Shown: piece by piece, positions 2,951 through 42,308 of the stretch
Layout of the letters: every line of letters starts with the position of its first letter
Numbering within the stretch: the stretch's first letter is position 1
Origin: Gemmatimonadaceae bacterium
GTDB lineage: Bacteria; Gemmatimonadota; Gemmatimonadetes; Gemmatimonadales; Gemmatimonadaceae
Direction of reading: 5' to 3'
Assembly (NCBI GenBank): GCA_035533015.1
Contig: DATLUQ010000055.1
Span: 1-42,308, forward strand
DNA: 42,308 bases
Program-made: the position numbers and the translations under genes
Notes under the pieces: generated by a model
What the model saw: the letters and a program-made list of their open reading frames with translations, nothing else
The model's database searches: none
Told to the model about the DNA's origin: nothing

Positions 2951-3000
2951 GGAATGGATCTGCGTGGTGTCCACGGGGGAAATGGCCGCCGACATCCCGT

Positions 3001-3024
3001 GCCGCCGCCCGCAGAGGCGGCGGC
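3001..3024. repeat. GC-rich perfect hairpin upstream of the TonB-dependent receptor gene
   Basis: GCCGCCGCC (3001-3009) and GGCGGCGGC (3016-3024) form a perfect 9-bp stem with a 6-base loop, about 50 bases before the receptor start and 77 bases after the end of the CDP-alcohol transferase gene. It has no T-tract. It could be a terminator for the upstream gene or a leader structure that limits receptor expression; the sequence does not decide between these. Confidence 0.4.
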
Positions 3025-3100
3025 CCGGCGGGCGGTCATGTCGCACCCGGGCAACACACAGGGGGCCCCGATGGTTCCGTGATGCTGGCCTGCGGCCTGT

Positions 3101-5928: not shown

Positions 5929-6789
5929 CTACATCACGTGTTCGTGTGGGCCCAACGCCACCGGGATCTTCGACGATTCAAGCCCTCCGTCTCTGATCCA
6001 CGCTCCCGTCGCCTCGGCGGCCCGGTCTTCCAGCAGGGCTGCCTGCGAGAAGTCGTAGGCGCTCACGGGAAGCGGACACAGCGGCGGAACGATCGCGATC
6101 GGCGCACGCGCGCCGAGCCGCTCGACATCGTACACGAGCTGGCGCGCGACCAGCAGCGTCATCGTATGCAGCACCATCGCGATGGCGTTGCTCGGGGGTT
6201 GCGACGTGGCGCAGGTGAATCCGGTGGGCAGCACAATCACCCGCGAAGCGCCCATGGCGAGCGCCGTCGAGATCGGCGCGTTGTTGGCGATCGCCCCATC
6301 CACGAGATCGCGCCCACCGACGCGCACGGCCGGCAGGAGCACGGGAATGGACGCGCTGGCCATCAGCGCATCGCTCGCCGGCCCGCTCGTCAATACCACT
6401 TCCGCGCCGTTGCGCACGTCCGAGGCGACGATGGCGCACGGGAGCACGAGGCTCTCCAGCCGGGCATTCCCGAAGTGTGTGGTCAACAGGCGTCGCAGCC
6501 CCGATGGCTCGAGCAGGTGCTCCCGATGGCCGAACACGCCCCGCATGGCGCCTAGCGGATTGAGCGGAAACACGTCGCGTCTCGTGATCGATGCCCAGAT
6601 CTGCCCGAGGCGCGCCACGCCGGCAAGCGTCGGATCGGCCGCGAAGTACGCGCCGTTGATGGCGCCCACCGACGTTCCAACCACGAAGTCAGGCCGCACG
6701 TCGGCCATCAGGAGCGCGCGCAGCATCCCGACCTGGATGGCGCCGAGGCTTCCGCCACCGGCCAGGACGAAGGCCGTGCGCTCGTTCAT
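5929..6789 (-). CDS. Patatin-like phospholipase family protein
   Basis: The 286-residue protein has all patatin landmarks: the oxyanion-hole glycine run 'LAGGGSLGAIQVG' (9-21), the nucleophile elbow G-T-S40-V-G, and the catalytic aspartate in D164-G-A-I-A-N-N. It is a predicted serine lipid acyl hydrolase with a Ser-Asp dyad, acting on membrane lipids or lysolipids. The start at 6789 overlaps the stop of the upstream TVP38 gene (ATGA), so translation is coupled; a longer reading to 6873 would lie inside that gene. It is the last gene of a three-gene minus-strand set with the MerA-like oxidoreductase. It is convergent with the GrdB-like selenoprotein gene, with 34 bases between their ends. Confidence 0.9.
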   Translation of the reverse strand: MNERTAFVLAGGGSLGAIQVGMLRALLMADVRPDFVVGTSVGAINGAYFAADPTLAGVARLGQIWASITRRDVFPLNPLGAMRGVFGHREHLLEPSGLRRLLTTHFGNARLESLVLPCAIVASDVRNGAEVVLTSGPASDALMASASIPVLLPAVRVGGRDLVDGAIANNAPISTALAMGASRVIVLPTGFTCATSQPPSNAIAMVLHTMTLLVARQLVYDVERLGARAPIAIVPPLCPLPVSAYDFSQAALLEDRAAEATGAWIRDGGLESSKIPVALGPHEHVM

Positions 6790-7466
6790 GACTGGCGCCT
6801 TGTCCGGCGGACCAACGACGGCAGAAACGACAGCGCCAGCAGCAGGAAACTGGCGGCTACTACCTGGAGCCATGCGGTCCGCGACGTGCCCGAGATGCCC
6901 AGCGCCAGACTCTGCGCGAACCAGGTGTACACGAGTGTGCCGGGGATGATGCCCAGCGCCGTGCCCACGACGAACGCGCGCGTCGGCACACGCGCCAGTC
7001 CGGACGCGACACTCAATCCGTCGAACGGAATGAGCGGAATCAAGCGAAGGCGCCCGATGGCCATCGCACCCGTCCGCGACGACAACGTGTCGAGCCGCGC
7101 GGCGTGGCGGCCCAGCAGGAGCCGGATCGCGTCGGCGCCGAGCGCACGCGCCAGAATAAACGATCCGGTGGCGCCAATCGTCGCGGCCATCCAGTTGAGC
7201 GCCGACCCCTTGGCGAATCCAAACACGATGCCTCCGGCGAGCGTGAACGGCGTGGCCGGCAGCGCCAGCGTGGCCGCCACGGCGTACACCAGCACGAACA
7301 GTGCCGACGCTCCCGGGGCACTGCGGAGGCGCGCAGCCAGTCCCAGCGGATCGCCGAGCATTCCGGCCGCCGTCCCCCGGAGGGCCAACCCGGCGGCCGC
7401 GATCAGGGCGACGAAGATGCCCAGCCGAATGAGGGCCGCACGGCGCGAGATGGACGGCGTACTCAT
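6786..7466 (-). CDS. TVP38/TMEM64 (DedA-like, VTT domain) membrane protein
   Basis: The 226-residue protein has a hydrophobic N-terminal helix, a central VTT domain ('TLALPATPFTLAGGIVFGFAKGSALNWMAATIGATGSFILAR', then 'RLRLIPLIPFDGLSVASGLARVPTRAFVVGTALGIIPGTLVYTWF') and a terminal helix with a basic tail (RRTRRQS). TVP38/DedA-related proteins act in lipid scrambling or ion-coupled membrane transport; the substrate of this one is unknown. The start at 7466 overlaps the stop of the upstream MerA-like gene (ATGA). Genes for TVP38 proteins and MerA-like flavoproteins often sit together or are fused in other bacteria, which supports a shared membrane-linked redox function. Confidence 0.85.
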   Translation of the reverse strand: MSTPSISRRAALIRLGIFVALIAAAGLALRGTAAGMLGDPLGLAARLRSAPGASALFVLVYAVAATLALPATPFTLAGGIVFGFAKGSALNWMAATIGATGSFILARALGADAIRLLLGRHAARLDTLSSRTGAMAIGRLRLIPLIPFDGLSVASGLARVPTRAFVVGTALGIIPGTLVYTWFAQSLALGISGTSRTAWLQVVAASFLLLALSFLPSLVRRTRRQS

Positions 7467-9019
7467 CGAAACAGCGAGAACCACGCGCCGAACAGCCGGC
7501 GCGCCAGCGGCGTCAACCGCGTGCGTCGCCAGGCGTCCGCGGCTCGACGATACACTTCGGCCTGGGTCGGATACGCGTGGATGGTACCGCCCAGCGCACC
7601 CAAGCCCAAACGGTTGGTGATGGCCACCGCCAGCTCGCCGATCATCTCCCCCGCGTGATCCGCAACGAGCGTTCCGCCGAGAATACGATCGCTGCCGGCC
7701 CGCAGATGGACCTTGAGAAATCCACCGTCGGCCCCGTCGAGCACGGCGCGGTCCACGTGCGACAACTCCACGGTGACGGTCTCCACCTTGCGCCCGGCGG
7801 CCTCCGCCTCGGCCGGCGTGAGCCCCACGTGCGCCACTTCGGGCGACGTGTAGGTCACGCGAGGCACGACAAGTTTGCTGTTACGTCCCCCACCGATGCC
7901 GAAGAAGAGCGCGTTGGGGACGGCCAGCCGGGCCTGGGCATCAGCGACGTGCGTGAACTGGAGCGGCGACGAGACGTCGCCGATAGCGTACACGCGACGA
8001 TTGCTGGTGCGCAGCCGGTCGTTGACGGTGATTCCGGTCGGCGAATACGCAATGCCGGCCGCGTCGAGCCCGAGGTTGTCCACGTTCGGCGCCCGCCCGG
8101 TCGCGATGAGCAGCCGGTCGCCCCGAATCGTCACGCTCCCCTGCGCGCCCGTCGCCGTCACGGTGAATTCCGCTCCGGCATACGACACGGACGTCAGGCG
8201 GTGATCGTGGTGCTGCGCGACGCCGTCGGCCCGGAGCGACGCCGAGACCAACTCGGCCGCGTCGGCGTCTTCGCGCGGCAGCAGGCGCGGACCGGCATTC
8301 ACCAGGGTGACGGCCGTGCCCAATCGCGCGAACGCCTGCGCCAACTCCGCGCCGATCGGTCCGCCACCCACCACGATCAGATGTCGCGGGCGTTCGGTCA
8401 CGGTGAAGATGGTCTCGTTGGTGTCGAACGGCGTGTCGGCAAGGCCGGGAACGAGCGGCACGGCGGCGCGCGCGCCGGTCGCGACGATGGCGCGACGGAA
8501 TCGCACCGTGCGGTCTCCGATGCGCACCGCATCCGGCGCCACGAATGCCGCGTCGCTCAGAAAGACGTCGACGCCCAGGCCGCGGAACCGCGCGGCCGAA
8601 TCGACGTCGCTCAACCCCGCTCGCAGGCCGCGGAGCCGGGCCATCGCCGCGGCGAAATCGCCGTCGCCCGATGCGCGCGGCCCCCCGAAAGCGGCGGCCG
8701 AGCCGCGCGCGTCATGCCACCCGCGGGCGGCACGGATGACCGCTTTGGACGGCACGCATCCCACGTTGAGGCAGTCGCCGCCGAGCATGGCGCGTTCAAC
8801 CAGGGCAACGCGCGCGCCCAACCCCGCGCCGATGGCGGCGCTCACGAGACCGGCGGTGCCGCCACCGATCACGACCAGGTGATAGCGATCGCGTTTCGGC
8901 GGCAGCGGCCAGCCGCGAGGACTCACATTGCCCGCCCAGTGCGCGTTCGGCGCATCGAACGGCGGCGCCGCGAAGCGCCCGGGCCAGTCAGCCGGCGGGT
9001 CAGGGAATGTTCGTGTCAC
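7463..9019 (-). CDS. MerA-like pyridine nucleotide-disulfide oxidoreductase (mercuric reductase family, no C-terminal Cys pair)
   Basis: The 518-residue flavoprotein has an FAD-binding 'LVVIGGGTAGLVSAAIGAGLGARVALVER', the redox disulfide G-G-D-C83-L-N-V-G-C88-V-P-S-K, an NAD(P)H-binding 'LIVVGGGPIGAELAQAFARLG', the 'YAIGDV' motif and a C-terminal dimerisation domain with 'HAYPTQAEV'. It differs from true MerA in ending 'RRLFGAWFSLFR', without the vicinal Cys pair that delivers Hg(II). Its physiological substrate is therefore probably something other than mercuric ion. I place the start at a GTG at 9019, since the open frame to 9190 runs through the mer promoter and into merR on the other strand. 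The GTG lacks a strong Shine-Dalgarno, so the start is less certain than the gene. Confidence 0.88.
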   Translation of the reverse strand: MTRTFPDPPADWPGRFAAPPFDAPNAHWAGNVSPRGWPLPPKRDRYHLVVIGGGTAGLVSAAIGAGLGARVALVERAMLGGDCLNVGCVPSKAVIRAARGWHDARGSAAAFGGPRASGDGDFAAAMARLRGLRAGLSDVDSAARFRGLGVDVFLSDAAFVAPDAVRIGDRTVRFRRAIVATGARAAVPLVPGLADTPFDTNETIFTVTERPRHLIVVGGGPIGAELAQAFARLGTAVTLVNAGPRLLPREDADAAELVSASLRADGVAQHHDHRLTSVSYAGAEFTVTATGAQGSVTIRGDRLLIATGRAPNVDNLGLDAAGIAYSPTGITVNDRLRTSNRRVYAIGDVSSPLQFTHVADAQARLAVPNALFFGIGGGRNSKLVVPRVTYTSPEVAHVGLTPAEAEAAGRKVETVTVELSHVDRAVLDGADGGFLKVHLRAGSDRILGGTLVADHAGEMIGELAVAITNRLGLGALGGTIHAYPTQAEVYRRAADAWRRTRLTPLARRLFGAWFSLFR

Positions 9020-9117: not shown

Positions 9118-9149
9118 TTGACCCTATACCAAGGTATAGGGTGTAGGAT
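9118..9149 (+). promoter_or_regulatory. MerR-type promoter and operator of the mer operon
   Basis: The -35 TTGACC (9118-9123) and -10 TAGGAT (9144-9149) are separated by 20 bp, the over-long spacer typical of MerR-activated promoters. The spacer holds a perfect dyad: CCTATACC-AA-GGTATAGG extended by one A-T and one more C-G pair, giving 10-bp arms at 9121-9130 and 9133-9142. It lies 29 bases ahead of the merR start on the same strand, so merR is autoregulated and co-transcribed with merC-like and merA rather than divergent from them as in Tn501 or Tn21. Confidence 0.88.
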
Positions 9150-9177: not shown

Positions 9178-9591
9178 ATGGCGCTGTCAATCGGTCAGGT
9201 CGCCGCAGCGGCCGATGTCAACATCCAAACCATTCGGTACTACGAGCGCCGCGGCATTCTTGTCCCCGCGAGTCGGACACCCGCGGGGTACCGCAAATAC
9301 GGGGACGACGCGGTGTCCCGGCTGCAATTCATTCGCCACGCCCAGGCGCTCGGGTTCACGCTCGGCGAGATCGACGAACTGCTGGCCCTCCGCGTCCGCG
9401 ATGCCGGCGCTTGCCGTCACGTCGAGAAACGGACGCGCGAGAAGATCGATGACGTGGACCTCCGCATTCGCGAGCTCCGGAAGATCAAACGGACTCTGGA
9501 GCGCCTCGCGGCGACCTGCGAGAGTCGACGGACCACGAACGCGTGTCCCATTCTGGAGGCACTGGAAGACAATGCCGATTTTGGAAGATAA
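9178..9591 (+). CDS. merR: Mercury-type MerR transcriptional regulator
   Basis: The 137-residue regulator has an N-terminal winged helix-turn-helix ('SIGQVAAAADVNIQTIRYYERRGIL', then 'PAGYRKYGDDAVSRLQFI'), a long dimerisation helix and a C-terminal metal site. The three cysteines C79, C114 and C123 are spaced 35 and 9 residues apart. This is the same spacing as the Hg(II) ligands C82, C117 and C126 of Tn501 MerR, so mercury sensing is well supported. The ATG at 9178 has GAGGAGGGG just upstream; an upstream reading from 9118 would include the promoter. The end overlaps the start of the MerC-like gene by 20 bases, and merA follows. Confidence 0.92.
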   Translation: MALSIGQVAAAADVNIQTIRYYERRGILVPASRTPAGYRKYGDDAVSRLQFIRHAQALGFTLGEIDELLALRVRDAGACRHVEKRTREKIDDVDLRIRELRKIKRTLERLAATCESRRTTNACPILEALEDNADFGR

Positions 9592-9967
9592 GGGAACGAC
9601 CTCGGCCGTTGGCGGACTCGCCGGGGCCGCCGCAAGTTCCGTCGCGTTGCTCTGTTGCGCAGGCGCAGGCCCGGCGCTCGCATTAGCCACTGCCCTGGGT
9701 CTCGGCTTTCTGATCCACGATGCAGTGCTGATCCCGCTGCTCGTCATCGCGCTGGGCGTCACCATGTGGGGGCTGAGCGATGGGCGAGGCCGCCATGGCA
9801 AGCCGTGGCCCCAGCATCTCGGAACCGTGGGTGCGGTGTGTACCCTGGGCGGGATGTTCGTCTGGCTGCCGCTTGCGTACGCCGGACTCGGCATGATCAT
9901 CGCGGCCAGCGCGTGGAATCTCTGGCTGACGCATCGGTGCGCGGCCCCCGACCGGCAGACCATTTGA
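9572..9967 (+). CDS. merC: MerC-like mercuric ion transport protein
   Basis: The 131-residue membrane protein has four hydrophobic segments (about 12-30, 34-60, 70-92 and 95-118). A vicinal pair C28-C29 sits in the first segment, followed by 'ALATALGLGFLIHDAVLIPLL' and a last helix 'AYAGLGMIIAASAWNLWL'. This matches MerC in length and helix pattern; MerC helices 1 and 4 carry similar sequence, although MerC has C-x-x-C in helix 1 where this protein has C-C. The role is uptake of Hg(II) across the inner membrane to MerA. The ATG at 9572 lies inside the end of merR, so translation is coupled. No merP or merT gene is present between merR and merA. Confidence 0.72.
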   Translation: MPILEDKGTTSAVGGLAGAAASSVALLCCAGAGPALALATALGLGFLIHDAVLIPLLVIALGVTMWGLSDGRGRHGKPWPQHLGTVGAVCTLGGMFVWLPLAYAGLGMIIAASAWNLWLTHRCAAPDRQTI

Positions 9968-9997
9968 CGGATTGTCTCCCACGACGTGAGGTGCATG

Positions 9998-11443
9998 ATG
10001 GCTAAGGGCAGCGGCACAAAGCACGTCCACGCCGGTCGCGGTATGGAATACGACGTAGCCGTGATCGGCGGGGGCTCGGCCGGCTTCGCGGCCGCGATCC
10101 GTGCCGCGGAACTGGGCGCCCGGGTGGCCATGCTCGAGGGCGGCACGCTCGGCGGTACGTGCGTCAACGTGGGGTGTGTACCATCCAAGACGCTGATTCG
10201 CGCCGCCGAAGCGCAGCACCATCGCCAGCACCACGGGTTCCACGGTATTGCGACATCTGATGGCGTGCCCGACTGGGCCGCGGTGCGCGCGCAGAAGGAC
10301 GAACTCGTCGCGACGCTGCGACAGGCCAAGTACCGCGACGTGATCCAGGGGTACGAGTCGGTGACTCTGTTCGAGCAACGGGCGGCCATCACCTCGGACC
10401 ACGGCATCGACGTCGCCGACGGACGCCGGATCCGCGCTGGCAAGATCATCATCGCGACCGGCGCCTCGGCGTGGGCCGCACCGATTCCGGGGCTCGCTGA
10501 AGCCGGGTATCTGGATAACGATTCAGCCATGGCGCTCGACGAGTTGCCAGCGTCTCTGATTGTGATCGGGGCGAGCGCGGTGGGACTCGAACTGGCCCAG
10601 ATGTTCTCGCGTTTGGGGGTACATGTCACCGTGCTCGAGGCGCTGCCGACCGTCGTGCCCATGGAAGACGCCGACGTGGGACGCGCGCTCGGCGACTATC
10701 TGCGCGCGGAAGGCCTGGACGTACGCGTCGGCGTCCGGATTGCGCATGTGGCGCGCACGGATGGGGCGTACCACGTATCGCTCACCGACGACGGCCGGCC
10801 GGAGACCGTGCACGCCGCCCAACTGCTCGTCGCAACTGGGCGGCGGCCGAACACTCACGGGTTCGGTCTCGAGGCGACTGGCGTGATGTTGGGGAAGAAG
10901 GGAGAAGTCGTCGTGGACGAGTTCTTGCAGACCGCCAACCCCGACATCTATGCGGCGGGCGACGTGATCGGCGATCCGGCGTTCGTGTACGTGGCGGCGT
11001 ATGGCGGGTCGCTGGCCGCGGAGAACGCGCTGACCGGAAACGCGCGGCGCTTCGACCTGACCGCCCTACCCAAGGTCACGTTCACGGACCCCGGCGTGGC
11101 GTCGGTGGGCCTCACCGAGGTCGAGGCGCGAGCCAACGGGGGGACGGTCGTCGTGTCCATCCTCTCGATGGAACACGTGCCGCGCGCGCTGGCCGCCCGC
11201 GACACCCGCGGGTTCGTGAAGCTCGTGGCGGACGCGGCCACACGAAAGATCGTCGGCGCGCACATCCTCTCGACCGAAGCGGGCGAGATGATCACCGAGC
11301 CCGCGCTGGCCATCAAGTTCGGACTGACGATCGAGGATCTGAAGGCCACCTTCCACCCCTATCTGACGCTGGCCGAAGCGATCAAGCTCGCGGCGCAGAC
11401 CTTCGACAAGGACGTGGCCAAGTTGTCGTGCTGCGCCGCGTGA
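9998..11443 (+). CDS. merA: Mercuric reductase MerA (without N-terminal HMA domain)
   Basis: The 481-residue flavoenzyme reduces Hg(II) to volatile Hg(0) with NADPH in the cytoplasm. It has an FAD motif ('VAVIGGGSAGFAAAIRAAELGARVAMLEG'), the active-site disulfide G-G-T-C55-V-N-V-G-C60-V-P-S-K, an NADPH motif ('LIVIGASAVGLELAQMFSRLG') and the 'IYAAGDVIG' motif. The diagnostic vicinal cysteines C478-C479 lie two residues from the C-terminus (K-L-S-C-C-A-A), where they hand Hg(II) to the active site. There is no N-terminal metallochaperone-like domain. Of the possible starts GTG 9986, ATG 9995 and ATG 9998, the last has the best spacing from GAGG at 9988. It completes the mer operon. Confidence 0.93.
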   Translation: MAKGSGTKHVHAGRGMEYDVAVIGGGSAGFAAAIRAAELGARVAMLEGGTLGGTCVNVGCVPSKTLIRAAEAQHHRQHHGFHGIATSDGVPDWAAVRAQKDELVATLRQAKYRDVIQGYESVTLFEQRAAITSDHGIDVADGRRIRAGKIIIATGASAWAAPIPGLAEAGYLDNDSAMALDELPASLIVIGASAVGLELAQMFSRLGVHVTVLEALPTVVPMEDADVGRALGDYLRAEGLDVRVGVRIAHVARTDGAYHVSLTDDGRPETVHAAQLLVATGRRPNTHGFGLEATGVMLGKKGEVVVDEFLQTANPDIYAAGDVIGDPAFVYVAAYGGSLAAENALTGNARRFDLTALPKVTFTDPGVASVGLTEVEARANGGTVVVSILSMEHVPRALAARDTRGFVKLVADAATRKIVGAHILSTEAGEMITEPALAIKFGLTIEDLKATFHPYLTLAEAIKLAAQTFDKDVAKLSCCAA

Positions 11444-32560: not shown

Positions 32561-32592
32561 TTGACTCCGTACCATAGTACGGACCCTATACT
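32561..32592 (+). promoter_or_regulatory. MerR-type promoter and operator of the tripartite efflux operon
   Basis: The -35 TTGACT (32561-32566) and -10 TATACT (32587-32592) are 20 bp apart. The spacer holds the dyad TCCGTACCATAGTACGGA (32566-32583; 7-bp arms, CATA centre), centred 2 bp toward -35 from mid-spacer, the same offset as in the mer promoter at 9118. The operator core CCGTACCA..GTAC and the TATACTGCA around -10 recur at the promoter of the MerR gene at 37562. This points to control by that regulator. Confidence 0.85.
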
Positions 32593-32610
32593 GCAGTGAG
32601 AGGTGGGGCC

Positions 32611-34197
32611 GTGCAACCAATCGCGATCAGCGAAATGAGGACGCGTTCAATCCAATTCCGACGTCGTGGCAATCGCAATGTCGTCGCCCGAGGGGTGCTC
32701 GCGACTCTCCTGGCCGGGTGCGCGGCCGGGCCGAATTTCGTTCCGCCGGCACAACCGGTGGGTGCCGCGTACACTCCGAGGACAACGGCGCGGCAGTTGG
32801 CGGCCGGCGACAGCGAACCCTCCCAGCGTCTCGTCGTCAATCAAGCGATTCCGGCTACGTGGTGGACCCTATTCCGATCGCCGGCGTTGGACAGTCTGGT
32901 GCAGAGCGCCATTGCGAGCAGTCCGACCACCGAGGCAGCCAGAGCACGGCTCGCCGAAGCGCAAGAGGGGGTGATCGAAGAGCGAGGCGCCTTGTACCCT
33001 CAAATCGACGCCGGCGCCCTGGCCGAGCGACAAAAGGGACCTCCATTCGCCCTCGGGCTCCTGCGGCCACGGCCGGTTCCCACCTTCAATCTCTACGCCG
33101 TGGGCCCGACCGCGAGCTACGCGCCCGATGTGTTCGGCCTCACGGCACGCCGCGTGGAAGAGAAGCGCGCGTTGGCTGAGACGCAGGCCTACCAGTTCGT
33201 CGCGGCGCAACTTGCCGTCACCGGCAATGCGGTGACGGCGGCGCTGACGATCGCGTCGATTCGCCTTCAGATCGATGCGCTCGAGGACCTGACGGCCGAC
33301 GACGAACGGAACCGCGCGCTTGTGCGGCAACGCCTATCGGCCGGCCGCGCCGCTCGCACCGACGAACTGATGGCCGCGGCCCAGTTGGCGAACGACCGCT
33401 TGCCATTGCCGCCGTTCCGGCAGCAGGTGGCTGTTGCCGAGAACGCCCTCGCCGTTCTGGTCGGCAGGTCCCCTGGGGAATGGACGCCGCCCGCCTTCAC
33501 GCTGGCCGATTTCACTTTGCCGGCCGAGCTGCCGGTAAGTCTGCCGTCAGCCCTCGTCCACCAGCGGCCCGACATCCTGGCGGCGGAGGCAGAGCTTCAC
33601 GCGAGCAGTGCCGCGATAGGCATCGCCACCGGACGGTTGTACCCCACGATCACCCTGTCCGGATCGCTCGAGCCCGCGGCGCTGGCCACAGGGGCGCTGT
33701 TCGACGGGTCGAGCGTGCTGTGGAATCTGGCCGCAGGCATCACGACGCCGATCTTCCACGGGGGCGTACTGGCGGCGCAGAAACGGGCCGCGATCGACGG
33801 ATTTCACGCGTCGCTGGCCACGTATCAGCAGACCGTATTGGAGGCCTTCGGCCAGGTCGCGAACATTCTGCGCGCCCTCAGCCACGATGCCGACCTGCTA
33901 GCGGCCGAGCGACAGGCACTCGACGCCTCGCGCGCCGCGCTCGCGCTGCAACGCCTCCGCTACGCGGCGGGCAAGATCAACATGCTCGAGCTACTCGCTG
34001 CCGATCGCAGCTATCAGCAAGCACGTCTTGGGTACGCTCGGGCGGAGGGTCAACGCTTTCTGGACAGCGCGCAACTGGTCGTGGCCCTCGGGGGCGGATG
34101 GTGGGATGATCCGTCCCTGTGTGGGGATTGCCGCGCACGGTCCGACTCTGCGGGCAAAGGCGCCTCCGCGAGTCCGTTCCCTTCCCTGCACCCGTAG
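32611..34197 (+). CDS. NodT-family outer-membrane efflux lipoprotein (TolC-like)
   Basis: The 528-residue protein has a signal with lipobox L-L-A-G-C37 followed by 'AAGPNFVPP', the usual opening of NodT/OprM-type lipoproteins ('GCAxGPxYxxP'). Two repeated TolC-like alpha-hairpin halves follow, with 'WWTLFRSPALDSLVQSAIASSPTTEAARARLAEAQ' and 'SLPSALVHQRPDILAAEAELHASSAAIGIATGRLYPTITLSGSL'. It forms the outer-membrane channel of a tripartite pump. I favour GTG at 32611 because GAGAGGTGG lies just before it and the promoter's transcription start falls near 32599; ATG at 32635 is an alternative. It is the first gene of a four-gene operon. Confidence 0.88.
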   Translation: MQPIAISEMRTRSIQFRRRGNRNVVARGVLATLLAGCAAGPNFVPPAQPVGAAYTPRTTARQLAAGDSEPSQRLVVNQAIPATWWTLFRSPALDSLVQSAIASSPTTEAARARLAEAQEGVIEERGALYPQIDAGALAERQKGPPFALGLLRPRPVPTFNLYAVGPTASYAPDVFGLTARRVEEKRALAETQAYQFVAAQLAVTGNAVTAALTIASIRLQIDALEDLTADDERNRALVRQRLSAGRAARTDELMAAAQLANDRLPLPPFRQQVAVAENALAVLVGRSPGEWTPPAFTLADFTLPAELPVSLPSALVHQRPDILAAEAELHASSAAIGIATGRLYPTITLSGSLEPAALATGALFDGSSVLWNLAAGITTPIFHGGVLAAQKRAAIDGFHASLATYQQTVLEAFGQVANILRALSHDADLLAAERQALDASRAALALQRLRYAAGKINMLELLAADRSYQQARLGYARAEGQRFLDSAQLVVALGGGWWDDPSLCGDCRARSDSAGKGASASPFPSLHP

Positions 34198-34206
34198 CCC
34201 ATACTC

Positions 34207-35406
34207 ATGAGATCGATCGTGAAGTATTTCCGTTCCGCGCCGCGCCCGACGGCGGCGACACCAGATGGGTCACCGCACGCGGGCCGCACCAGGCCGCCGT
34301 CAGACGCATGGCACCGTGTACGGCAGGGTGCCGGTGTCCTGTTCGTCGTGGCCGCGCTGGTCGTGGCCCTGCGATCGACGGTGATGCGGCCGCCGGTGGT
34401 TACCGTGGCGACCGTGACACGCGGGGACGTCGTGGCCGAGATCGAGGGGACTGGCACGGTAACGGCGGACGTTCTGGCGGATGTCAGTTCAAAGATCACC
34501 GGTCGGGTCGAGCAGGTCTTCGTCAACGAGGGCGATCGCGTACGGCGAGGCCAGGTCATCGCCGCCCTCGATCAGGCGGATCTCCGGTGGCAGGTCCAGG
34601 CCGCGCGCGCGACGCTGGCCGGAGCCCGGGAAGCGGCCGAGGAGCGCCAACGGGAATGGGCCCGCGAACAGACCTTGGTCGCCTCCGGGGCCGTGAGCAC
34701 GGAAGATTGGCAACAATACCGCGAACGCAACGCCGTGGCGCAGAGCGCGCTGCACGCGGCCGAAGCGGACCTCGGATCTGCGGCGTACCGGCTGACTCTC
34801 ACGCGAATCCCCTCGCTGGTCAGCGGGGTTGTGACCCAGCGATGGGTCGTGCCGGGCGCTTCGGTGGTGCCCGGCCAGCCGCTGTTTACCGTGGCCGACA
34901 CCAGTGTGATCTACGTGAGCGCCTACATCGATCAGGACTTCACGGGGAAGATTCGCAAAGGCGAATCGGCGTCGGTCCTGCTTCGCGGCCGGGAGCGGGC
35001 CCCGTTGTCGGGATACGTCCTGCGCATGCGTCCGCGCGCGGACGCGGCCACGGAGGAGACCGTGGCGGAAGTCGCAGTTTCGCTTCCGCTCGAAGAATTC
35101 CAACTCGGGCAGTGGGCCAACGTCTACCTCCAGGTCGGGAAGGCGACCAATGCGCTGGTCATTCCCAGGGCCGCGCTCATGGCGATGGGCGACCGCGTCC
35201 TCGTGTTCGCGCTCGACGGACGAAACACGGTTCATCAGGTGCCGGTGACGGTCATCGCGAGCAGTCCGCGCGCCTCGGGGGTCGCGGTCACGGGGAATCT
35301 CCGCACGGGCGAGCGCGTCGTGCTGATGCCCATGGGCTTGCGCGACGGTCAGACGGTTCGTGCCGCCCGCGCGGACACGGGTCACGCGGCGATGACCGTG
35401 CGATGA
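34207..35406 (+). CDS. Periplasmic adaptor (HlyD/MFP family) of ABC efflux pump
   Basis: The 399-residue protein has a membrane anchor (about 41-60, 'AGVLFVVAALVVALRSTVM'), a barrel-sandwich/lipoyl half 'GDVVAEIEGTGTVTADVLADVSSKITGRVEQVFVNEGDRVRRGQVIAALD', a coiled-coil hairpin (about 130-205) and the second lipoyl half 'LTRIPSLVSGVVTQRWVVPGASVVPGQPLFTVAD'. A beta-barrel and membrane-proximal domain follow. It joins the inner-membrane transporter to the outer-membrane factor. It starts 9 bases after the channel gene and overlaps the permease gene (ATGA). Confidence 0.9.
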   Translation: MRSIVKYFRSAPRPTAATPDGSPHAGRTRPPSDAWHRVRQGAGVLFVVAALVVALRSTVMRPPVVTVATVTRGDVVAEIEGTGTVTADVLADVSSKITGRVEQVFVNEGDRVRRGQVIAALDQADLRWQVQAARATLAGAREAAEERQREWAREQTLVASGAVSTEDWQQYRERNAVAQSALHAAEADLGSAAYRLTLTRIPSLVSGVVTQRWVVPGASVVPGQPLFTVADTSVIYVSAYIDQDFTGKIRKGESASVLLRGRERAPLSGYVLRMRPRADAATEETVAEVAVSLPLEEFQLGQWANVYLQVGKATNALVIPRAALMAMGDRVLVFALDGRNTVHQVPVTVIASSPRASGVAVTGNLRTGERVVLMPMGLRDGQTVRAARADTGHAAMTVR

Positions 35407-36716
35407 ATCTCGCCATCAGGGACGTCAGGCACTCCAGCTTCAAGTTCTTCAGCTCGACAATCGGCGTCTCGTTGCTGATCATGGTGGTCGTGGCGATCGG
35501 CGGGATCGTCCGAGGGGTGATCCTCGACTCGGCGACGATCGTCGACGAGACCGGCGCCGACCTCTGGGTGGTTCAGGCTCGCGGCACACGCCCCCACGAC
35601 GGCACGCTGGGTCCGTTTGTGGAGATTTCCCGACTTCCAGAAAGCATCTACCACGCCATCGAGGCGATCCCCGGCGTGGCGCAGGCGAGTCCGCTAGCGA
35701 CGGCTTGGGAACACGTGCAGACCATGCCCCACCCGACGCGGCTCATGAAATTCATGTACCTGAACACGTTGCTCAACACGGCGACGATGGTGAAGCCTGG
35801 ATGGATGGCGATGCCTCAGACGCAGCGGTTCATCATCATCGGGTATCAGCGCGGAAAGATCGGCGGCCCGCCCACCCTCGTCGCCGGCCGCACCATCGAC
35901 GCTAGCCATTACGAGGTCGTCGCCGACATCACGACCGGGTTCCAGGTCGGGCAACGCCTGCGGTTGGGCAACTTCGACTACACCGTGGTGGGCCTCACGA
36001 GGCACATGGTGGCCTTCACCGCCGATCCCGTGGTCTACACCACCCTGCAGGACGCCGAGCGCATCATCTTCCAGGCGGACCCCAATATGCTCCGCCGTGA
36101 ACGACCACTCGTCGCGCAAGGCGTTGCGAACCTGGCCGCCGCGCAGCCCGGCCTGGTCGCGCCGTTGACAGGCCAGGTGCTGACATCGTTTCAGAATACG
36201 CTCTTCATCAACGCGGTGGCGGTCAAGGTGCGGCCGGGCGCGTCGGCGACGGCCATCGCGGCGCATATCGGTCAATGGCAACATCTCCAGGTCTATACCG
36301 CACCGGAAGCGATCAACATCCAACTGATGGGATCGAATCGGCTCATCCTGTTCCAGCTTGCCCTGTTTCGCGACATCCTCATTGTGATCGTCGGCGTCGT
36401 GATCGCGCTCATCATCTATACCTCCACCCTGGACAAGCTGCACGAGATCGCGATGCTCAAACTGCTCGGCGCGCCTGGCCGAGTCATCTACCAGATGATC
36501 CTGCAGGAAGCACTGTTCATGGGAATCGTCGGCACCTTGTTTGGGAGTGCGCTTGAGCTGCTGATCGAACCGTACTTTCCGAGAAGGGTCGTGGCGACCT
36601 ATGGCGACATCGCGCAGATGCTCGTGGTGATGGTTGGCGTCGCCGCGCTGGCGAGCGCGCTCGCAGTGCGACGGGCCATGCGCGTCGATCCGCGCAGCGT
36701 TCTCGGAGCGGGGTAA
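35403..36716 (+). CDS. ABC transporter permease (FtsX/MacB-DevC type)
   Basis: The 437-residue protein has an N-terminal helix ('FFSSTIGVSLLIMVVVAIGGIVRGVI'), a large extracytoplasmic domain (about 45-320) and three C-terminal helices with the FtsX domain ('LALFRDILIVIVGVVIALIIYTSTLDKLHEIAMLKLLGAPGRVIYQMILQEALFMGIVGTLFGSALELLI...RRAMRVDPRSVLGAG'). In this class the pump couples ATP hydrolysis to pushing a substrate from the periplasm through the adaptor and channel, rather than across the inner membrane. The ATG at 35403 overlaps the adaptor stop. The closest architecture is DevC of DevBCA exporters. Confidence 0.9.
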   Translation: MNLAIRDVRHSSFKFFSSTIGVSLLIMVVVAIGGIVRGVILDSATIVDETGADLWVVQARGTRPHDGTLGPFVEISRLPESIYHAIEAIPGVAQASPLATAWEHVQTMPHPTRLMKFMYLNTLLNTATMVKPGWMAMPQTQRFIIIGYQRGKIGGPPTLVAGRTIDASHYEVVADITTGFQVGQRLRLGNFDYTVVGLTRHMVAFTADPVVYTTLQDAERIIFQADPNMLRRERPLVAQGVANLAAAQPGLVAPLTGQVLTSFQNTLFINAVAVKVRPGASATAIAAHIGQWQHLQVYTAPEAINIQLMGSNRLILFQLALFRDILIVIVGVVIALIIYTSTLDKLHEIAMLKLLGAPGRVIYQMILQEALFMGIVGTLFGSALELLIEPYFPRRVVATYGDIAQMLVVMVGVAALASALAVRRAMRVDPRSVLGAG

Positions 36717-36718
36717 GC

Positions 36719-37447
36719 ATGGAGCGAGTGAACGACCCCCGATACGCCATCCTGGCCGAGCGACTCGTCAAGGTGTACGGCCAGGGCCGGACCCGCGTGG
36801 AAGCGCTCAGAGGAGTTGACCTCGCGGTGCGCCCTGGGGACTTGTGGGCCATCATGGGTCCGAGCGGGGGTGGCAAGACCACTCTTCTCACGATTCTCGG
36901 CCTGGTGACCGAACCAACCGAAGGACGCGTGCTGCTCGACGGGGAAGACATTTATGGAGGAGGGCGGGCCCCCGATGTGGCGCGTATCCGACGCGAGAGC
37001 ATCGGCTTTGTCTTTCAGTCCCCCAACCTGATTCCGTTCCTGACCGCGAGAGAGAACGTACTGCTGCCGCTCAGCTTGGCCGGTGTCCGCGGCACGCCGG
37101 CCGAAGCCCGGACGGCGGAACTGCTCGAGTATCTGGAAATCGCGGACCGCGCGGCTCAGTACCCGAACCAACTCTCCGGCGGCGAGCAGCAGCGCGTCGC
37201 CATCGCGCGCGCGCTGGCCAACAATCCGAAGATCCTGCTCGCGGACGAGCCGACGGCGAGCCTCGATACCGACCGCGCACTCGCCGTGATGCGGCTGCTG
37301 CGCCAGGTCTCAACCACGTACCGCACGGCGGTGCTGGTGGTCACGCACGATCACCGTTTGATCGGGAAGGTCGACCGCGTGATTGAGATGCGGGATGGCC
37401 GGTTTGTCGAGGACGTCGCCAGCGGCGCGATGTCCGGACCTCCGTGA
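36719..37447 (+). CDS. ABC transporter ATP-binding protein (LolD/MacB-DevA type)
   Basis: The 242-residue ATPase has Walker [10 protein letters not shown] (47-55), the Q-loop '[23 protein letters not shown]', the signature L-S-G-G-E-Q (152-157), Walker B 'ILLADEP' (172-178) and the H-loop '[10 protein letters not shown]'. It energises the FtsX-type permease whose gene ends 2 bases upstream. It is the last structural gene of the efflux operon; the MerR gene begins 114 bases later from its own promoter. Confidence 0.93.
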
Positions 37448-37510
37448 GGGAGCCGCCCGGCCAGTAACGGCGGCCGGGGCTGGGCCCGCCGCGCCCCGCC
37501 ACGGCCGCGA

Positions 37511-37542
37511 TTGCCACCGTACCACGGTACCGTGCTTATACT
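37511..37542 (+). promoter_or_regulatory. MerR-type promoter and operator of the second merR-like gene
   Basis: The -35 TTGCCA (37511-37516) and -10 TATACT (37537-37542) are separated by 20 bp. The spacer carries GTACC-AC-GGTAC (37519-37530) within ACCGTACCACGGTACCGT, which matches the efflux-operon operator at 12 of the 14 central positions and sits in the same register. Both promoters also share TATACTGCA at -10. It lies 19 bases before the regulator's start. Confidence 0.85.
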
Positions 37543-37561
37543 GCATCACCGAGGAGCCACC

Positions 37562-38068
37562 ATGGGAGACCGTACAATTGGAAGGGCCGCCCGCGACGCG
37601 GGCGTCAGTGTCGAAACAATTCGCTTCTATGAACGCCGTGGGCTGATCGAACAGCCCTCGAGACCTTCGCCCGCCGGATTCCGATCATACGCGCCCGATC
37701 AGATCGAGCAGGTCAAATTCATTCGTCGCGCACAGCATATCGGGTTCTCACTGCGCGAGATCCAGGAGCTGTTGGCGCTCCGCGTCGACCCGTCTGCCGA
37801 CTGTTCGACGGTCCGGGCACGGGCGACGGCGAAGCTCGTGGAGGTACAGCACAAAAGCGAGCAGCTATGTGAGATCGCGGCGGCACTGGAATCCCTCATC
37901 GCAGCCTGCCCTGGGCGCGGCGCACTCCGCTCGTGCACGATCCTCAACGCACTCGCCGCGCCCGGGCATGAGGCGTCGTCCCAGTCCGGGGCCGATCGCG
38001 CCTTCTCCAGCCCGCGATCCGAACACGGGCGGACTGAATCGCCCCGGATCTTCCGGAGACTGGTTTAG
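37562..38068 (+). CDS. Mercury-type MerR regulator (second copy), C-terminus altered by an IS3 end
   Basis: The 168-residue protein has the MerR winged helix ('TIGRAARDAGVSVETIRFYERRGLI', then 'PAGFRSYAPDQIEQVKFIRRAQHIGFSLREIQELL') and a metal site C81, C116, C125. The spacings of 35 and 9 are identical to Tn501 MerR (C82, C117, C126), and an extra C103 lies in the dimer helix. It probably senses Hg(II) or a similar soft metal. The ATG at 37562 has GAGGAG at good spacing. The protein is longer than usual (about 140): the last 11 residues (T-E-S-P-R-I-F-R-R-L-V) are read from what looks like the terminal repeat of an IS3-type element starting near 38035. The metal-binding part is intact, so it is probably functional. 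Confidence 0.9.
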   Translation: MGDRTIGRAARDAGVSVETIRFYERRGLIEQPSRPSPAGFRSYAPDQIEQVKFIRRAQHIGFSLREIQELLALRVDPSADCSTVRARATAKLVEVQHKSEQLCEIAAALESLIAACPGRGALRSCTILNALAAPGHEASSQSGADRAFSSPRSEHGRTESPRIFRRLV

Positions 38069-38254: not shown

Positions 38255-39634
38255 GAGCTCTTGTCAAGAAGTGTGTAAATGGCGTCAGGCGGCGCGCAGC
38301 TTTCGGGTGGGGGTGATGGTGCGGATGCCGTCGGGAAAGGCGACGCCATCCGACACGGCGGTACAGAGGTGCGGGGCATTCAGTTTCCGGAAGTGGTGCT
38401 CGACGACCAACAGCGTTTTCCAAACCAGTGCCGTGGCATTCTCGACGATCTTGAACCGCTTGGCCGCGGACGTGCGCAGGCGCACCGCCGCGAACGGAGA
38501 CTCGATGACATTCGTCGTACGGAGATGCGTCCAGTGCTCCTGGGGAAACGCGTAGTAGGCGATCATCCGCTCCCAGTCGTGGGCCAGCCGCTCGACCGCC
38601 TTGGGGTGCGGCCGGCGATAGGTGCGGGTGAAGCGCTCGCGGAGCACGGTGGCCGCGTGGGCCGTGTCGGCACTCGCGATAGCCTGCAGCGCGGCCTTGA
38701 CCTCGGCCTGGTGCTTCTTCGGCACCGTATCGAGCACGTTCCGGAGTTTGTGGTTCCAGCAGCGTTGCTCCGCACTCTCGGGATAGACCGCGGCGAGCCC
38801 GCTCCAGATTCCCAGATGCCCATCGGCGATCGTGAGCTTCGGCGCGCGCAATCCGCGCCGCTTGAGATCGCGCAGCACCGCCGCCCAACTCTCGGTGGAC
38901 TCGCGCTGCCCGCTCGTGACCGCGAGCACCCGCTTCTGCCCCTCGGCATCCGCGCCGATCAGCACGAGCAGCGCGGCCTTGCTGGTCTCGAGCCCGGCCT
39001 TCACGTACACACCGTCGGCCCAGAGATAGATCAGGCGGCAGTCGGAGAGATCGCGCTGCTGCCAGGCGCTGTACTGCGCCTGCCACGTCGCTTTGAGGCG
39101 CAGGAGGGAGCTCGCACTCAGCGGCGCGGCATCGCCCAGCAGGCCCCGCAGCGCCAACTCGAAATCGCCGAGTGCGAGGCCGTGGAGGTAGAGCGCCGGC
39201 AACAGCGCCGCCACTTCCGGCGTCCGGCGTTGGAAGAGCGGGAGCAGCCGGCTCGCGAACCGCGCCTCCAGGTCGCGCACGCGCGGCCGCCGCACGGTGA
39301 TCGTGCCATTCATCAACGCGAGCTGCCGCGGCTTCCCGTGCCCGTTGCGGGCCCCGGGCGGCGCATCGACCGCCCCGCGGCGCGCCGACTTCGTGCGGCC
39401 CAGCAACTCGGTCACTTCGTCCTCCAAGAGCTGCTGGAGGAAGCCCTGGATGTGCAGGCGGGCAAACGTCTCGAGGGTGTCCCAGGTCGGCCTTGACGCG
39501 GCGGCTTCTCGGTTCATCTTCTGCATCGGGCGGTGGCTCCTTTTCGTGGCCGGGCATTCGGCCCGGGGTGATTGATCTCACCCGAGAAGGTGTCACCGCC
39601 TTTCGCCTATTTCCACACTTTTAGAGAATAGCTC
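38255..39634 (-). mobile_element. IS256-family insertion sequence (complete, with terminal inverted repeats)
   Basis: The left end (GAGCTCTTGTCAAGAAGTGTG from 38255, then TAAAT) and the reverse complement of the right end (GAGCTATTCTCTAAAAGTGTG up to 39634, then GAAAT) match at most positions over about 26 bases. This gives imperfect terminal inverted repeats in the form usual for IS256-family elements. The 1380-bp unit encloses a single transposase gene. The flanking 8-mers TCGGCGAT and GGCTCGTT are not duplicates, so the expected 8-9 bp target duplication is absent. Confidence 0.85.
38285..39526 (-). CDS. IS256-family transposase
   Basis: The 413-residue DDE transposase is full length. It has the N-terminal 'HIQGFLQQLLEDEVTELLGRTKSARRG' and 'GHGKPRQLALMNGTITVRRPRVRDLE', the first catalytic Asp in 'IYLWADGVYVKAG', the second in 'KLTIADGHLGIWSGL', the 'QRCWNHKLRNVLD' C/H motif and the catalytic Glu in 'TTNVIESPFAAVRLRT'. 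No frameshift or internal stop is seen, so it is probably active. AAGGAG lies upstream of the ATG at 39526. A second minus-strand frame over the same DNA (38154-39596) has no transposase or other family sequence and is not a gene. Confidence 0.93.
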   Translation of the reverse strand: MQKMNREAAASRPTWDTLETFARLHIQGFLQQLLEDEVTELLGRTKSARRGAVDAPPGARNGHGKPRQLALMNGTITVRRPRVRDLEARFASRLLPLFQRRTPEVAALLPALYLHGLALGDFELALRGLLGDAAPLSASSLLRLKATWQAQYSAWQQRDLSDCRLIYLWADGVYVKAGLETSKAALLVLIGADAEGQKRVLAVTSGQRESTESWAAVLRDLKRRGLRAPKLTIADGHLGIWSGLAAVYPESAEQRCWNHKLRNVLDTVPKKHQAEVKAALQAIASADTAHAATVLRERFTRTYRRPHPKAVERLAHDWERMIAYYAFPQEHWTHLRTTNVIESPFAAVRLRTSAAKRFKIVENATALVWKTLLVVEHHFRKLNAPHLCTAVSDGVAFPDGIRTITPTRKLRAA

Positions 39635-40032: not shown

Positions 40033-40914
40033 CTAGCGCGAACTGTCTGCGCCCGTCGTTCCGGCTCCCACTCGCGTCACAACCTCGTTCATCGTGTAGT
40101 GGACAAACTGGCGGCCCAGTTCTGTCAACAGGTATGGCTTCGACCCCTCGAAGGCAGATTCCATGGTCGTGGCTGCCGGCCGACCGCTCTTTTGTGGACG
40201 GCGACGTACGAACTGTCCCATGGCGTTCGTATCCCGTTCCTGGCGAATGACGCCGCCGGTGCTCAGATCCCGAATCATCAACTTGAAGAGATCGGCCTCG
40301 GCAGAATCTTCACGCGGAAGTACTTCTCCATACAGCGACGTCCAAATCTCGTAACGTGATGAACCCGGATTTTCGAAGATCTCTCGGACGACTGCGAAAT
40401 GCACCTCGTGGTAGAGTTCGAGCCAGTCGATGAAGAGGCGAACAACATCGTCGGAACAGATACGCGTACCCGCGGCGTTGACTACGAGATTCGCGGCGTA
40501 GCGGCGCTTCTCTTTGGTATCTGCTTCGTCCCAGGTGCGGAACGCACGCCTGACGATGCCAAGATACTCCTCACTCTGGATGCGGTCCTCGACTGTAGCC
40601 CCCAGCTTGTCAAAGCGCTGCTCAACGTCGCTCAGCGTTTCTCGGAGGTCGTCGATCTTTTGCTGGTGTTCGCCAAGCCACTGCGTCTGCAGATCGTCCC
40701 GATGAGCGGCGCGCTCGTCGTCTCGGATGGTCGCGGCGGCCGCAAGAAAGCCGCCAACCCAGGGTATCGCGCCGAGCGCGGCGACGACAAACTTCTCCGC
40801 CACACGACGCTTTCGAGACGGCGGCGCGGTCGTGAGCTCGGACGTGATGTGGGCGACATCCTGGGCGCTAGAACGAGGGTCAGGCAGGTCAGGCACTTCT
40901 TCCCGTGTCGGCAT
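40033..40914 (-). CDS. Hypothetical protein with hydrophobic segment and coiled coil
   Basis: The 293-residue protein has a hydrophobic glycine/alanine segment at about 42-62 ('VVAALGAIPWVGGFLAAAATI'). A charged helical stretch follows (about 75-110, 'LGEHQQKIDDLRETLSDVEQRFDKLGATVEDRIQSEEY') that looks coiled coil. The C-terminal helical domain contains 'RRAFRTWDEADTKEKRRYAANLVVNAAGTRICSDDVVRLFIDWLELYHEVHFAVVREIFENPG' and 'LIRDLSTGGVIRQERDT'. It resembles conserved hypothetical proteins scattered on mobile DNA of many phyla, with no known function. The ATG at 40914 has GGAG 9 bases upstream; an upstream extension to 41031 is not conserved-looking. It lies downstream of another hypothetical gene on the same strand. 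Confidence 0.65.
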   Translation of the reverse strand: MPTREEVPDLPDPRSSAQDVAHITSELTTAPPSRKRRVAEKFVVAALGAIPWVGGFLAAAATIRDDERAAHRDDLQTQWLGEHQQKIDDLRETLSDVEQRFDKLGATVEDRIQSEEYLGIVRRAFRTWDEADTKEKRRYAANLVVNAAGTRICSDDVVRLFIDWLELYHEVHFAVVREIFENPGSSRYEIWTSLYGEVLPREDSAEADLFKLMIRDLSTGGVIRQERDTNAMGQFVRRRPQKSGRPAATTMESAFEGSKPYLLTELGRQFVHYTMNEVVTRVGAGTTGADSSR

Positions 40915-41178
40915 TCGGACCGCTCCAACAAACAGGCACAAGGGGCCATGGGCTTCTGCGGCCCGACGGCAGGGTCGTGTGGCGTTCGCGTATCGCGCGC
41001 GCCGCGGGCATCGGGTGCCAGCGGGAGACAAGACCAGCGGCGGATCCGGTGAAATTGAAGTTCAGCCGACCAATGGAACAGTCCGGAAGTGATGCGATGC
41101 AGCTCCCCGCCATCTTTGCCGGCGCAACCGTGCCATGCCTGGCCCCCTCCTTGAGAGGTGGACCAGGTTGCTCGTCGG

Positions 41179-41820
41179 TCAGATGCTGGGCCAAATGCTT
41201 TCGATGTTCGTGCATGCCGCCTCGATGTCCCGAAGCGTTCGTGCTCCCGCTCGAGCGGCTTTGAATTCGCGGCCCCGGGTGACATCGAGGTACCTGATGG
41301 ACGAGCTCCTGATGTCCGGGACGCGTCCTCTGGCGGCTTCGAGCATCACCTGCGACACAATCTTGACCGTTTCTTCTTTGGGCGCCTCCACGGCGAAGTC
41401 CAGCTTGATGAGCTCCGGCTTGTCGCGTTCGACGGCGTGAAGGTCTGGGGTCACGGTGATCACGACGTCTCCCACTGCCAATCGCAAGCGCAACTGGCGC
41501 TGGATTTCGAAATGCCGGTCAGCAAAGTGTCTCTCGTACGCGGCAAGGGCACGCGCGTTATGGCGGAGTCGGGTGCCGGCCCTACCCGGTGTCAAGCGCG
41601 CCAGATCTGTCAGGTCTGAGACCTTCGCGCGAAGCCACTCTCGGCCGTGAGACGATCCGTGATACGCACTGATTCGGTCCGTGGCGTCCTTGTAGTAGAG
41701 CCGCATTGCCGATGGCTCGTCTTCGTCCGGATACTTGTAGTCACGGAGGACCTTGCGCTGAGCCGCCGGCGATGAGGTCATGTATTTGGCCAATCCCCGG
41801 ACACTGATCTTGATCATCAT
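41179..41820 (-). CDS. Hypothetical protein, possibly nuclease-like
   Basis: The 213-residue soluble protein is not assigned to a family. The N-terminus reads 'MMIKISVRGLAKYMTSSPAAQRKVLRDYKYPDEDEPSAMRLYYKDATDRISAYH', and the second half has alternating strands and helices: 'EIQRQLRLRLAVGDVVITVTPDLHAVERDKPELIKLDFAVEAPKEETVKIVSQVMLEAA'. The 'TPDLHA...ELIKLDF' stretch recalls the strand order of PD-(D/E)xK nuclease-like proteins, but the second acidic residue is not in a clear (D/E)-x-K, so this is only a suggestion. The ATG at 41820 (or 41817) has GGAG about 6 bases upstream. It lies 264 bases ahead of the other hypothetical gene, probably in one transcript. Confidence 0.6.
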   Translation of the reverse strand: MMIKISVRGLAKYMTSSPAAQRKVLRDYKYPDEDEPSAMRLYYKDATDRISAYHGSSHGREWLRAKVSDLTDLARLTPGRAGTRLRHNARALAAYERHFADRHFEIQRQLRLRLAVGDVVITVTPDLHAVERDKPELIKLDFAVEAPKEETVKIVSQVMLEAARGRVPDIRSSSIRYLDVTRGREFKAARAGARTLRDIEAACTNIESIWPSI

Positions 41821-42308
41821 TTGCTCCCGCGCAGGAGTGGCATGCCGGCCACGACCCAACTATCGGCGCGCTAGCCAAACCGTGAGCCGGCCTGGGGTCG
41901 GCAATCTGCAGTGCGTCGCTCCGTATTCTGTGCTGCGTGCACCCAGACGAGCAAGGGATATCGGAAATCCACACTGCATTAGAAAAATTAGAACGAAGAC
42001 AACACGCGTCCCCGGTGATGGATTGCTGCGCCCGTTGATGGTCATCGCCTGCGCCGTGACGCGTGCTACCGAGGGTAGATCCGGTGCTCGATCGGTGGCA
42101 GCCTTCAACGGGGAAAGAAGCGTCTGCTACGATAGGGATGCCCGGCAGGCGCCGACGGGGAACATGAAGAGACCGGCGATAACTCCAATCCCTCCGTCAA
42201 TCCCGGCCTTGCGGCGGCCCCGCTCACGAGCATTGGCCCGGGTGCCGGCGGGGGGATCCCTCGCCGGCGCGGGTCGTGGATCGGGTAGGCTGAGCCCGAG
42301 AATGGAAG
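41821..42308. other. No gene recognised; AT-richer patch and a hairpin
   Basis: No open frame in this stretch has family-like sequence. An AT-rich patch at about 41960-42000 stands out from the GC-rich surroundings and could hold the promoter of the minus-strand gene ending at 41820, but no clear -35/-10 pair was found. GCCGGCG (42244-42250) and CGCCGGC (42262-42268) form a 7-bp hairpin of unknown role near the window edge. Confidence 0.4.

Follow-up and report, generated by a model that had tools for sequence, protein, structure and literature searches.

The present analysis concerns a 42,308-nucleotide stretch of DNA from a Gemmatimonadaceae bacterium (the entire contig C55, here called the window, of a parent genome of 3.03 Mb in 66 contigs), in which the sequence supports the presence of a mercury-type MerR regulator, MerR2, with its own operator before a tripartite pump of the MacB/DevC type. 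A promoter, the four pump genes, a second promoter and the regulator gene merR2 occupy positions 32561-38068, all on the forward strand (Table 1). The four pump genes look like a single operon because they are tightly spaced, the adaptor (MFP) and permease genes overlapping (ATGA) and the permease and ATPase genes being separated by 2 nt. Metal control of the pump, as predicted from this arrangement, is well supported. Furthermore, the pump probably belongs to soft-metal defence, because the mercury-type MerR is accompanied by two matching promoters and because a homologous operon in another phylum (L022) has its own MerR and three matching promoters. The reading that we favour, and consider fairly probable, is that of a soft-metal-induced, ATP-driven Type VII tripartite pump that would rid the periplasm of metal, metal-thiol complexes or molecules damaged by metal.

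Of 38 aligned bases the two promoters share 27, with CCGTACCA..GTAC and TATACTGCA standing in register in both, and their spacers are both of 20 bp (19 bp in Tn501/Tn21), so that the pair of promoters with a shared operator and -10 element that had been proposed in the initial annotation is indeed present. According to Permina et al. (PMC1526738), the proteobacterial mer signal is TCCGTAC-(4)-GTACGGA with a 19-bp spacer, the firmicute one has a 20-bp spacer, and mixed sites are rare. The pump promoter is of this mixed type, with a perfect proteobacterial 7-4-7 dyad within a spacer of firmicute length. This exact 7-4-7 consensus, at 32566-32583, turned up a single time when the window was shuffled 200 times with a second-order Markov model. 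A scan of the 42 kb for the whole architecture (TTGxxx, a 19- or 20-bp spacer, TAxxxT and a dyad centred as in merO) returned three sites, at 9118, 32561 and 37511, against 0.02 expected in Markov shuffles; a generic search for 16-bp dyads with up to two mismatches was not significant and uninformative (5 matches against 2.1 expected). When the composite promoter-operator pattern was searched without mismatch across the 3.03-Mb genome, only the pump and regulator promoters fitted it (0 in the reversed control), and genome-wide no merA, merT or merP was found under MerR2, sites of the MerR2 type being located solely before the pump and merR2. The remaining genome-wide near-matches to the bare dyad are within coding open reading frames (ORFs) and were dropped as regulon members. 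Because the composite pattern fits those two promoters alone, MerR2 probably controls just the pump and itself in this genome.

MerR2 contains C81, C116 and C125 in addition to C103, and alignment to chain 5crl_A places the first three on Cys82, Cys117 and Cys126 of Tn501 MerR, confirming the Tn501-like spacing first read from the letters. Among solved structures its best relatives are Tn501 MerR (5crl) and Bacillus MerR (4ua1), with CueR, CadR and ZntR behind, and its recognition-helix residues VETIRFY are common to Tn501 MerR and most of the regulators compared that have CCGTAC operators. The likeness to the Tn501/Tn21 system also includes the TTGACT element and the TCCGTAC-N4-GTACGGA dyad. 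In contrast to that system, the spacer is one of 20 bp, the regulator is co-directional with its targets rather than divergent, and the target is an ABC (ATP-binding cassette) pump and not merTPA.

Eight plasmid loci carrying a MerR (L014-L021) were examined for comparison. The nearest of these regulators are 56-59% identical to MerR2, and their neighbours are mer genes at L018 and L019 (including merTPA), heavy-metal P-type ATPases with CcdA or HMA proteins at L015-L017, and major facilitator superfamily transporters at L014 and L020, while the more distant MerR of L021 adjoins two P-type ATPases. A dyad of the CCGTAC/CTGTAC type in a promoter with a 20-bp spacer adjoins merR in five of the eight loci. 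All three cysteines are kept in seven of the eight plasmid MerRs, the one of L019 being without the first although it flanks merTPA. As a separate observation, an HMA-type domain can be read from the sequence as fused to the C-terminus of three plasmid MerRs (L015, 4986-5669; L017, 5001-5675; L019, 5001-5675); these lie near P-type ATPases, CcdA or merTPA and could be sensor-chaperone fusions.

The plasmid relatives of the pump itself, of about 40% identity, are TetR-linked pumps of unassigned substrate from Citrobacter, Klebsiella and Shinella (e.g. L011 and L012). They share the order MFP-FtsX-ATPase(-NodT) and have permeases 36-38% identical to that of the window, but they differ in having a TetR regulator, in being without the methionine-rich insert described below and in that no MerR was found nearby. 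Such relatives would be in line with general drug or toxin efflux, in which the MerR would sense a non-metal ligand and the mer-like operator would have been inherited. However, MerR2 retains the three Hg-type cysteines and its closest relatives are located in metal loci, and drug-sensing MerRs like BmrR and TipA carry different C-terminal domains; we regard this explanation as very improbable.

Concerning the pump proteins, the matches to TIGR01730 (adaptor) and TIGR01845 (outer-membrane factor) are above their cut-offs, which indicates that both the adaptor and the channel of a tripartite complex are encoded. The outer-membrane factor starts at GTG 32611 or ATG 32635 and has the lipobox LLAGC. 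A CGDC motif is also present at its C-terminus (34120-34131, residues 504-507 counted from GTG 32611), which is not in the L022 outer-membrane factor. The MacB_PCD (PF12704) and FtsX (PF02687) domains of the permease are above cut-off. An AlphaFold2 model of this protein (pLDDT 77.9, from a 27-sequence alignment) gave VIA-align Z scores of 24.5 with HrtB, about 16-18 with LolC/E and 15.2 with MacB (5lj6/5lil/5lj7), and the modelled fold is that of a Type VII ABC permease (MacB/LolC-like). The best NCBIfam matches of the ATPase are LolD (210.5 bits), DevA (201.0) and MacB (188.6), each below its own cut-off. Membership in the DevBCA glycolipid exporters was rejected, as the permease scored 35.4 bits against the equivalog cut-off of 290.35 of TIGR01185 (devC).

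A genome scan with the permease alignment led to L022, a locus in the 2.7-Mb gammaproteobacterial metagenome-assembled genome REEB218, which is the one close relative among the matches listed: its permease is 76% identical over the full length and the next best is at about 40%. The other proteins are 58% (outer-membrane factor), 61% (MFP) and 73% (ATPase) identical. The initial annotation had pointed to the order OMF-MFP-FtsX-ATPase-MerR (OMF, outer-membrane factor) with three conserved cysteines as something to be sought in other genomes; the order recurs in L022, with a gene for a glutaredoxin-like CPAC protein inserted between ATPase and MerR (its stop overlaps the merR start), while the cysteine triad does not, the L022 MerR (36% identical to MerR2) being without the first cysteine. 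In L022 the pump promoter reads TTGACT-N19-TAGCCT, and its dyad, CTGGAGTCGACTCCGG, is offset just as in merO. This matched dyad, CTGGAGTCGACTCCAG, is unlike the one in the window and is found in three promoters with 19-bp spacers, the two other copies being within 1.1 kb, before a beta-barrel gene (PF13557) and, divergently, before a gene pair encoding a periplasmic HMA(CPFC) protein and an NHL protein. One further match in the 2.7-Mb genome, at a gene boundary in the ubi operon, was set aside as probably due to chance. We infer that the neighbouring MerR would bind the three dyads; a second, CueR-like MerR is encoded about 3.2 kb downstream of it. Judging by these sequences, the pump appears to have been retained through a joint change of regulator and operator, and the predicted L022 regulon includes a metal-binding protein. 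The whole locus (535-3070 and 8110-8816) has the aspect of a MerR island in which HMA-NHL, beta-barrel, pump and glutaredoxin-like genes are under three matched promoters.

The gene neighbourhoods also bear on the proposal that the pump exports a soft-metal chelator or thiol, akin to a metallophore, which would be secreted and capture metal outside the cell. Siderophores are exported by MacB-type pumps (PvdRT-OpmQ; PMC8277102), but there is no evident biosynthetic cluster beside the window pump, which is flanked by genes for a HAD hydrolase, a glycogen debranching enzyme and an IS256 transposase, and the L022 neighbours are the HMA, NHL, beta-barrel and glutaredoxin-like genes; we consider this proposal improbable.

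The window permease carries a methionine-rich periplasmic insert of 29 residues (RLMKFMYLNTLLNTATMVKPGWMAMPQTQ, residues about 113-141), whose counterpart in L022 is RLMKFMYMNALLNTAAMVEPGWMAMPKLQ. Five methionines are common to both inserts, and the insert was absent from all 36 other permease relatives compared. In known proteins, methionine thioethers act as ligands of Cu(I), Ag(I) and Hg(II). A metal site in the insert is only a suggestion, since this segment is modelled at low confidence.

Several points weigh against a soft-metal pump. TIGR02051 (MerR), the top NCBIfam match of MerR2, reaches 117.7 bits, below its equivalog cut-off of 150.85, so that calling MerR2 a mercury regulator exceeds the family model. 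The loss of the first Hg cysteine from the L022 MerR implies that the inducer is not constant, and mercury cannot be assumed for the pump family. In addition, the adaptor and the permease are without cysteines, most of the insert has pLDDT below 50 with no metal site visible, and HrtB, the closest structural match, exports heme and not metal ions. Finally, there are two pump members among the matches listed, so the recurrence counts as a single independent case. The claim of a mercury- or soft-metal-induced export system in the initial annotation is upheld in part: as regards the Hg-type MerR with its operator before a tripartite pump, its kin in metal loci and the presence of a MerR and an HMA protein in L022, and not as regards mercury as the inducer or the kind of cargo (metal, metal-thiol, lipid or chelator).

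Because HrtB is the nearest structure, a lipid or porphyrin damage product is the main rival to the metal as substrate. In a metal-induced envelope repair of this kind, MerR2 would sense metal and the pump would extrude a hydrophobic or damaged molecule (lipid, porphyrin/heme or lipopeptide) that accumulates under metal stress. The best structural matches (the heme exporter HrtBA, LolCDE and MacB) are consistent with it, as are the substrates known for the MacB family, namely macrolides, glycolipids, lipopeptides, protoporphyrin and siderophores (PMC8277102), and the case of YbbAP, which had at one time been proposed for heavy metals and has since been reported to be a lipid hydrolase complex (PMC12646458). 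However, the L022 regulon adds periplasmic HMA metal-binding and glutaredoxin-like proteins, and the methionine-rich insert is confined to the MerR-linked pair, and we hold envelope repair to be rather unlikely.

A genuine mer operon, overlooked in the initial annotation, is also present in the window. It is compact (MerR1-MerC-like-MerA, 9178-11443, in one reading direction, with a promoter from 9118) and has an unusual operator, CCTATACC-N2-GGTATAGG, in a 20-bp spacer, with the half-site CTATACC as compared with CCGTAC for MerR2. The MerA of the window is thus under the MerR1 operator and not that of MerR2, and the two regulators, encoded on one contig with different operators, look insulated from each other. 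With this operon present, the pump is not the only mercury response of the cell and could plausibly act under exposure to mercury. As the operon has its own MerR1 and operator, it also argues against MerR2 merely regulating a lost mer operon. Adjoining it in the opposite direction (6786-8887, reverse strand) are a MerA-paralogue FAD oxidoreductase (NF004991, 626 bits, cut-off 620) and then a protein with only a weak match to undecaprenyl-phosphate transporters (UptA).

Table 1. Features of the window, with positions and supporting matches
Feature	Position	Strand	Details
Pump promoter, MerR-type	32561..32592	+	TTGACT-N20-TATACT, dyad TCCGTACCATAGTACGGA at 32566-32583; exact proteobacterial mer consensus (PMC1526738)
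Outer-membrane factor, NodT-type lipoprotein	32611..34197	+	TIGR01845 358 bits (cut-off 210), PF02321
Periplasmic adaptor (MFP)	34207..35406	+	TIGR01730 192.5 bits (cut-off 94.9)
MacB/DevC-like Type VII ABC permease	35403..36716	+	PF12704, PF02687
ABC ATPase, LolD/DevA/MacB type	36719..37447	+	PF00005
Promoter of regulator gene, MerR-type	37511..37542	+	TTGCCA-N20-TATACT, dyad ACCGTACCACGGTACCGT at 37516-37533
MerR2, mercury-type MerR regulator	37562..38068	+	Cys81/Cys116/Cys125
mer operon operator-promoter	9118..9149	+	TTGACC-N20-TAGGAT, dyad CCTATACC..GGTATAGG, half-site unlike that of MerR2
MerR1, regulator of mer operon	9178..9591	+	C79, C114, C123
MerC-like mercury transport protein	9572..9967	+	PF03203 35.6 bits (cut-off 27.6)
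Mercuric reductase MerA	10001..11443	+	TIGR02053 563.7 bits (equivalog cut-off 454.45)
IS256-family transposase, adjoins regulator	38285..39526	-	NF033543 289 bits (cut-off 150)

The IS256 neighbour, together with the absence of the pump from two genomes of the same genus, is no more than suggestive of recent horizontal transfer; the GC content of the pump is 0.665 as against 0.683 upstream, and the dinucleotides are without strong anomaly. Past the transposase (40036-41859, reverse strand) lie ORFs of 332 and 226 aa, neither of which has a Pfam match. Regarding the wider distribution, no further close permease was found in samples comprising 295 genomes from the class, 395 from the phylum, 369 from gammaproteobacteria and 385 from alphaproteobacteria. 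Two of these scans were run at a strict cut-off and gave no positive-control match, so that further members may well exist. A scan of viral contigs with the two-member permease alignment gave no relative, and neither did a plasmid search with the adaptor at 1e-40.

With respect to known exporters, the adaptor, FtsX/MacB_PCD permease, ATPase and outer-membrane factor, as well as the fold, resemble MacAB-TolC and the other Type VII exporters DevBCA and PvdRT-OpmQ. The pump differs from these exporters in its own NodT channel, its metal-type regulator and its methionine-rich insert, and its ATPase is separate as in DevCA, unlike MacB. The job proposed for it, moving soft metal out of the periplasm through an outer-membrane channel, is that of CusCBA and CzcCBA (heavy-metal efflux resistance-nodulation-division pumps, HME-RND), with an ATP-driven ABC permease here in place of the proton-driven RND one. 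It is a tentative possibility that the pump is an ATP-powered Type VII ABC counterpart of CusCBA/HME-RND, working by mechanotransmission, in which soft metal (Hg(II), Cu(I)/Ag(I)) would be bound by the methionine-rich insert and expelled via NodT, the pump having been re-recruited by different MerRs across phyla. ABC export of Hg/Cd-thiol complexes is established for Atm1-type exporters (NaAtm1, ABCB6; PMC11143254) and is a precedent for the proposed job. These are nevertheless of another ABC type, inner-membrane transporters without adaptor or channel. To the best of our knowledge, no linkage of Atm1-type exporters to a MerR is known. The initial annotation had called the system not previously described, and this agrees with the literature searched (subscription papers and preprints being outside its coverage), which yielded no account of a tripartite ABC pump under MerR control. 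Taken singly, the parts are all of familiar kinds; what is unreported in that literature is their combination, in which a mer-type regulator has a Type VII tripartite pump as its sole target and the pump bears a methionine-rich insert specific to it.

From the genes, their order, the operators, the regulator cysteines and the recurrence with a second MerR, all of them observed, we infer the function, including the identity of inducer and substrate, metal binding and activation. For the favoured soft-metal pump, the mechanism could be as follows. MerR2 would sit on the over-long 20-bp spacers in the promoters of the pump operon and of merR2, repressing them and then, as expected from its family, activating them by DNA distortion upon metal binding: a thiophilic metal, with Hg(II) as the best candidate in this genome, would bind its three cysteines, the promoters would be untwisted and transcription would be switched on. 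The permease-ATPase would then convert cytoplasmic ATP hydrolysis into a periplasmic stroke, by a mechanotransmission like that of MacB (PMC8277102), driving the substrate through the adaptor and the NodT channel out of the cell. This substrate would most likely be the soft metal itself or a periplasmic metal-thiol or metal-ligand complex, the methionine-rich insert perhaps taking part in its handling; a metal-damaged envelope molecule is the main alternative. The pump would in this way be complementary to the MerA of the same window, by which mercury would be reduced in the cytoplasm. The prediction is a narrow one, involving a single promoter, a single regulator, four genes and a handful of metals. 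The classical mer system imports Hg(II) to the cytoplasm for reduction, and the known tripartite periplasmic metal export is carried out by proton-driven RND pumps. If our reading is true, a mer-type regulon that includes a Type VII pump powered by ATP would also offer soft metals a way out of the cell, or else a means of clearing metal-damaged envelope molecules, and orphan DevC-like pumps would gain a testable class of substrates.

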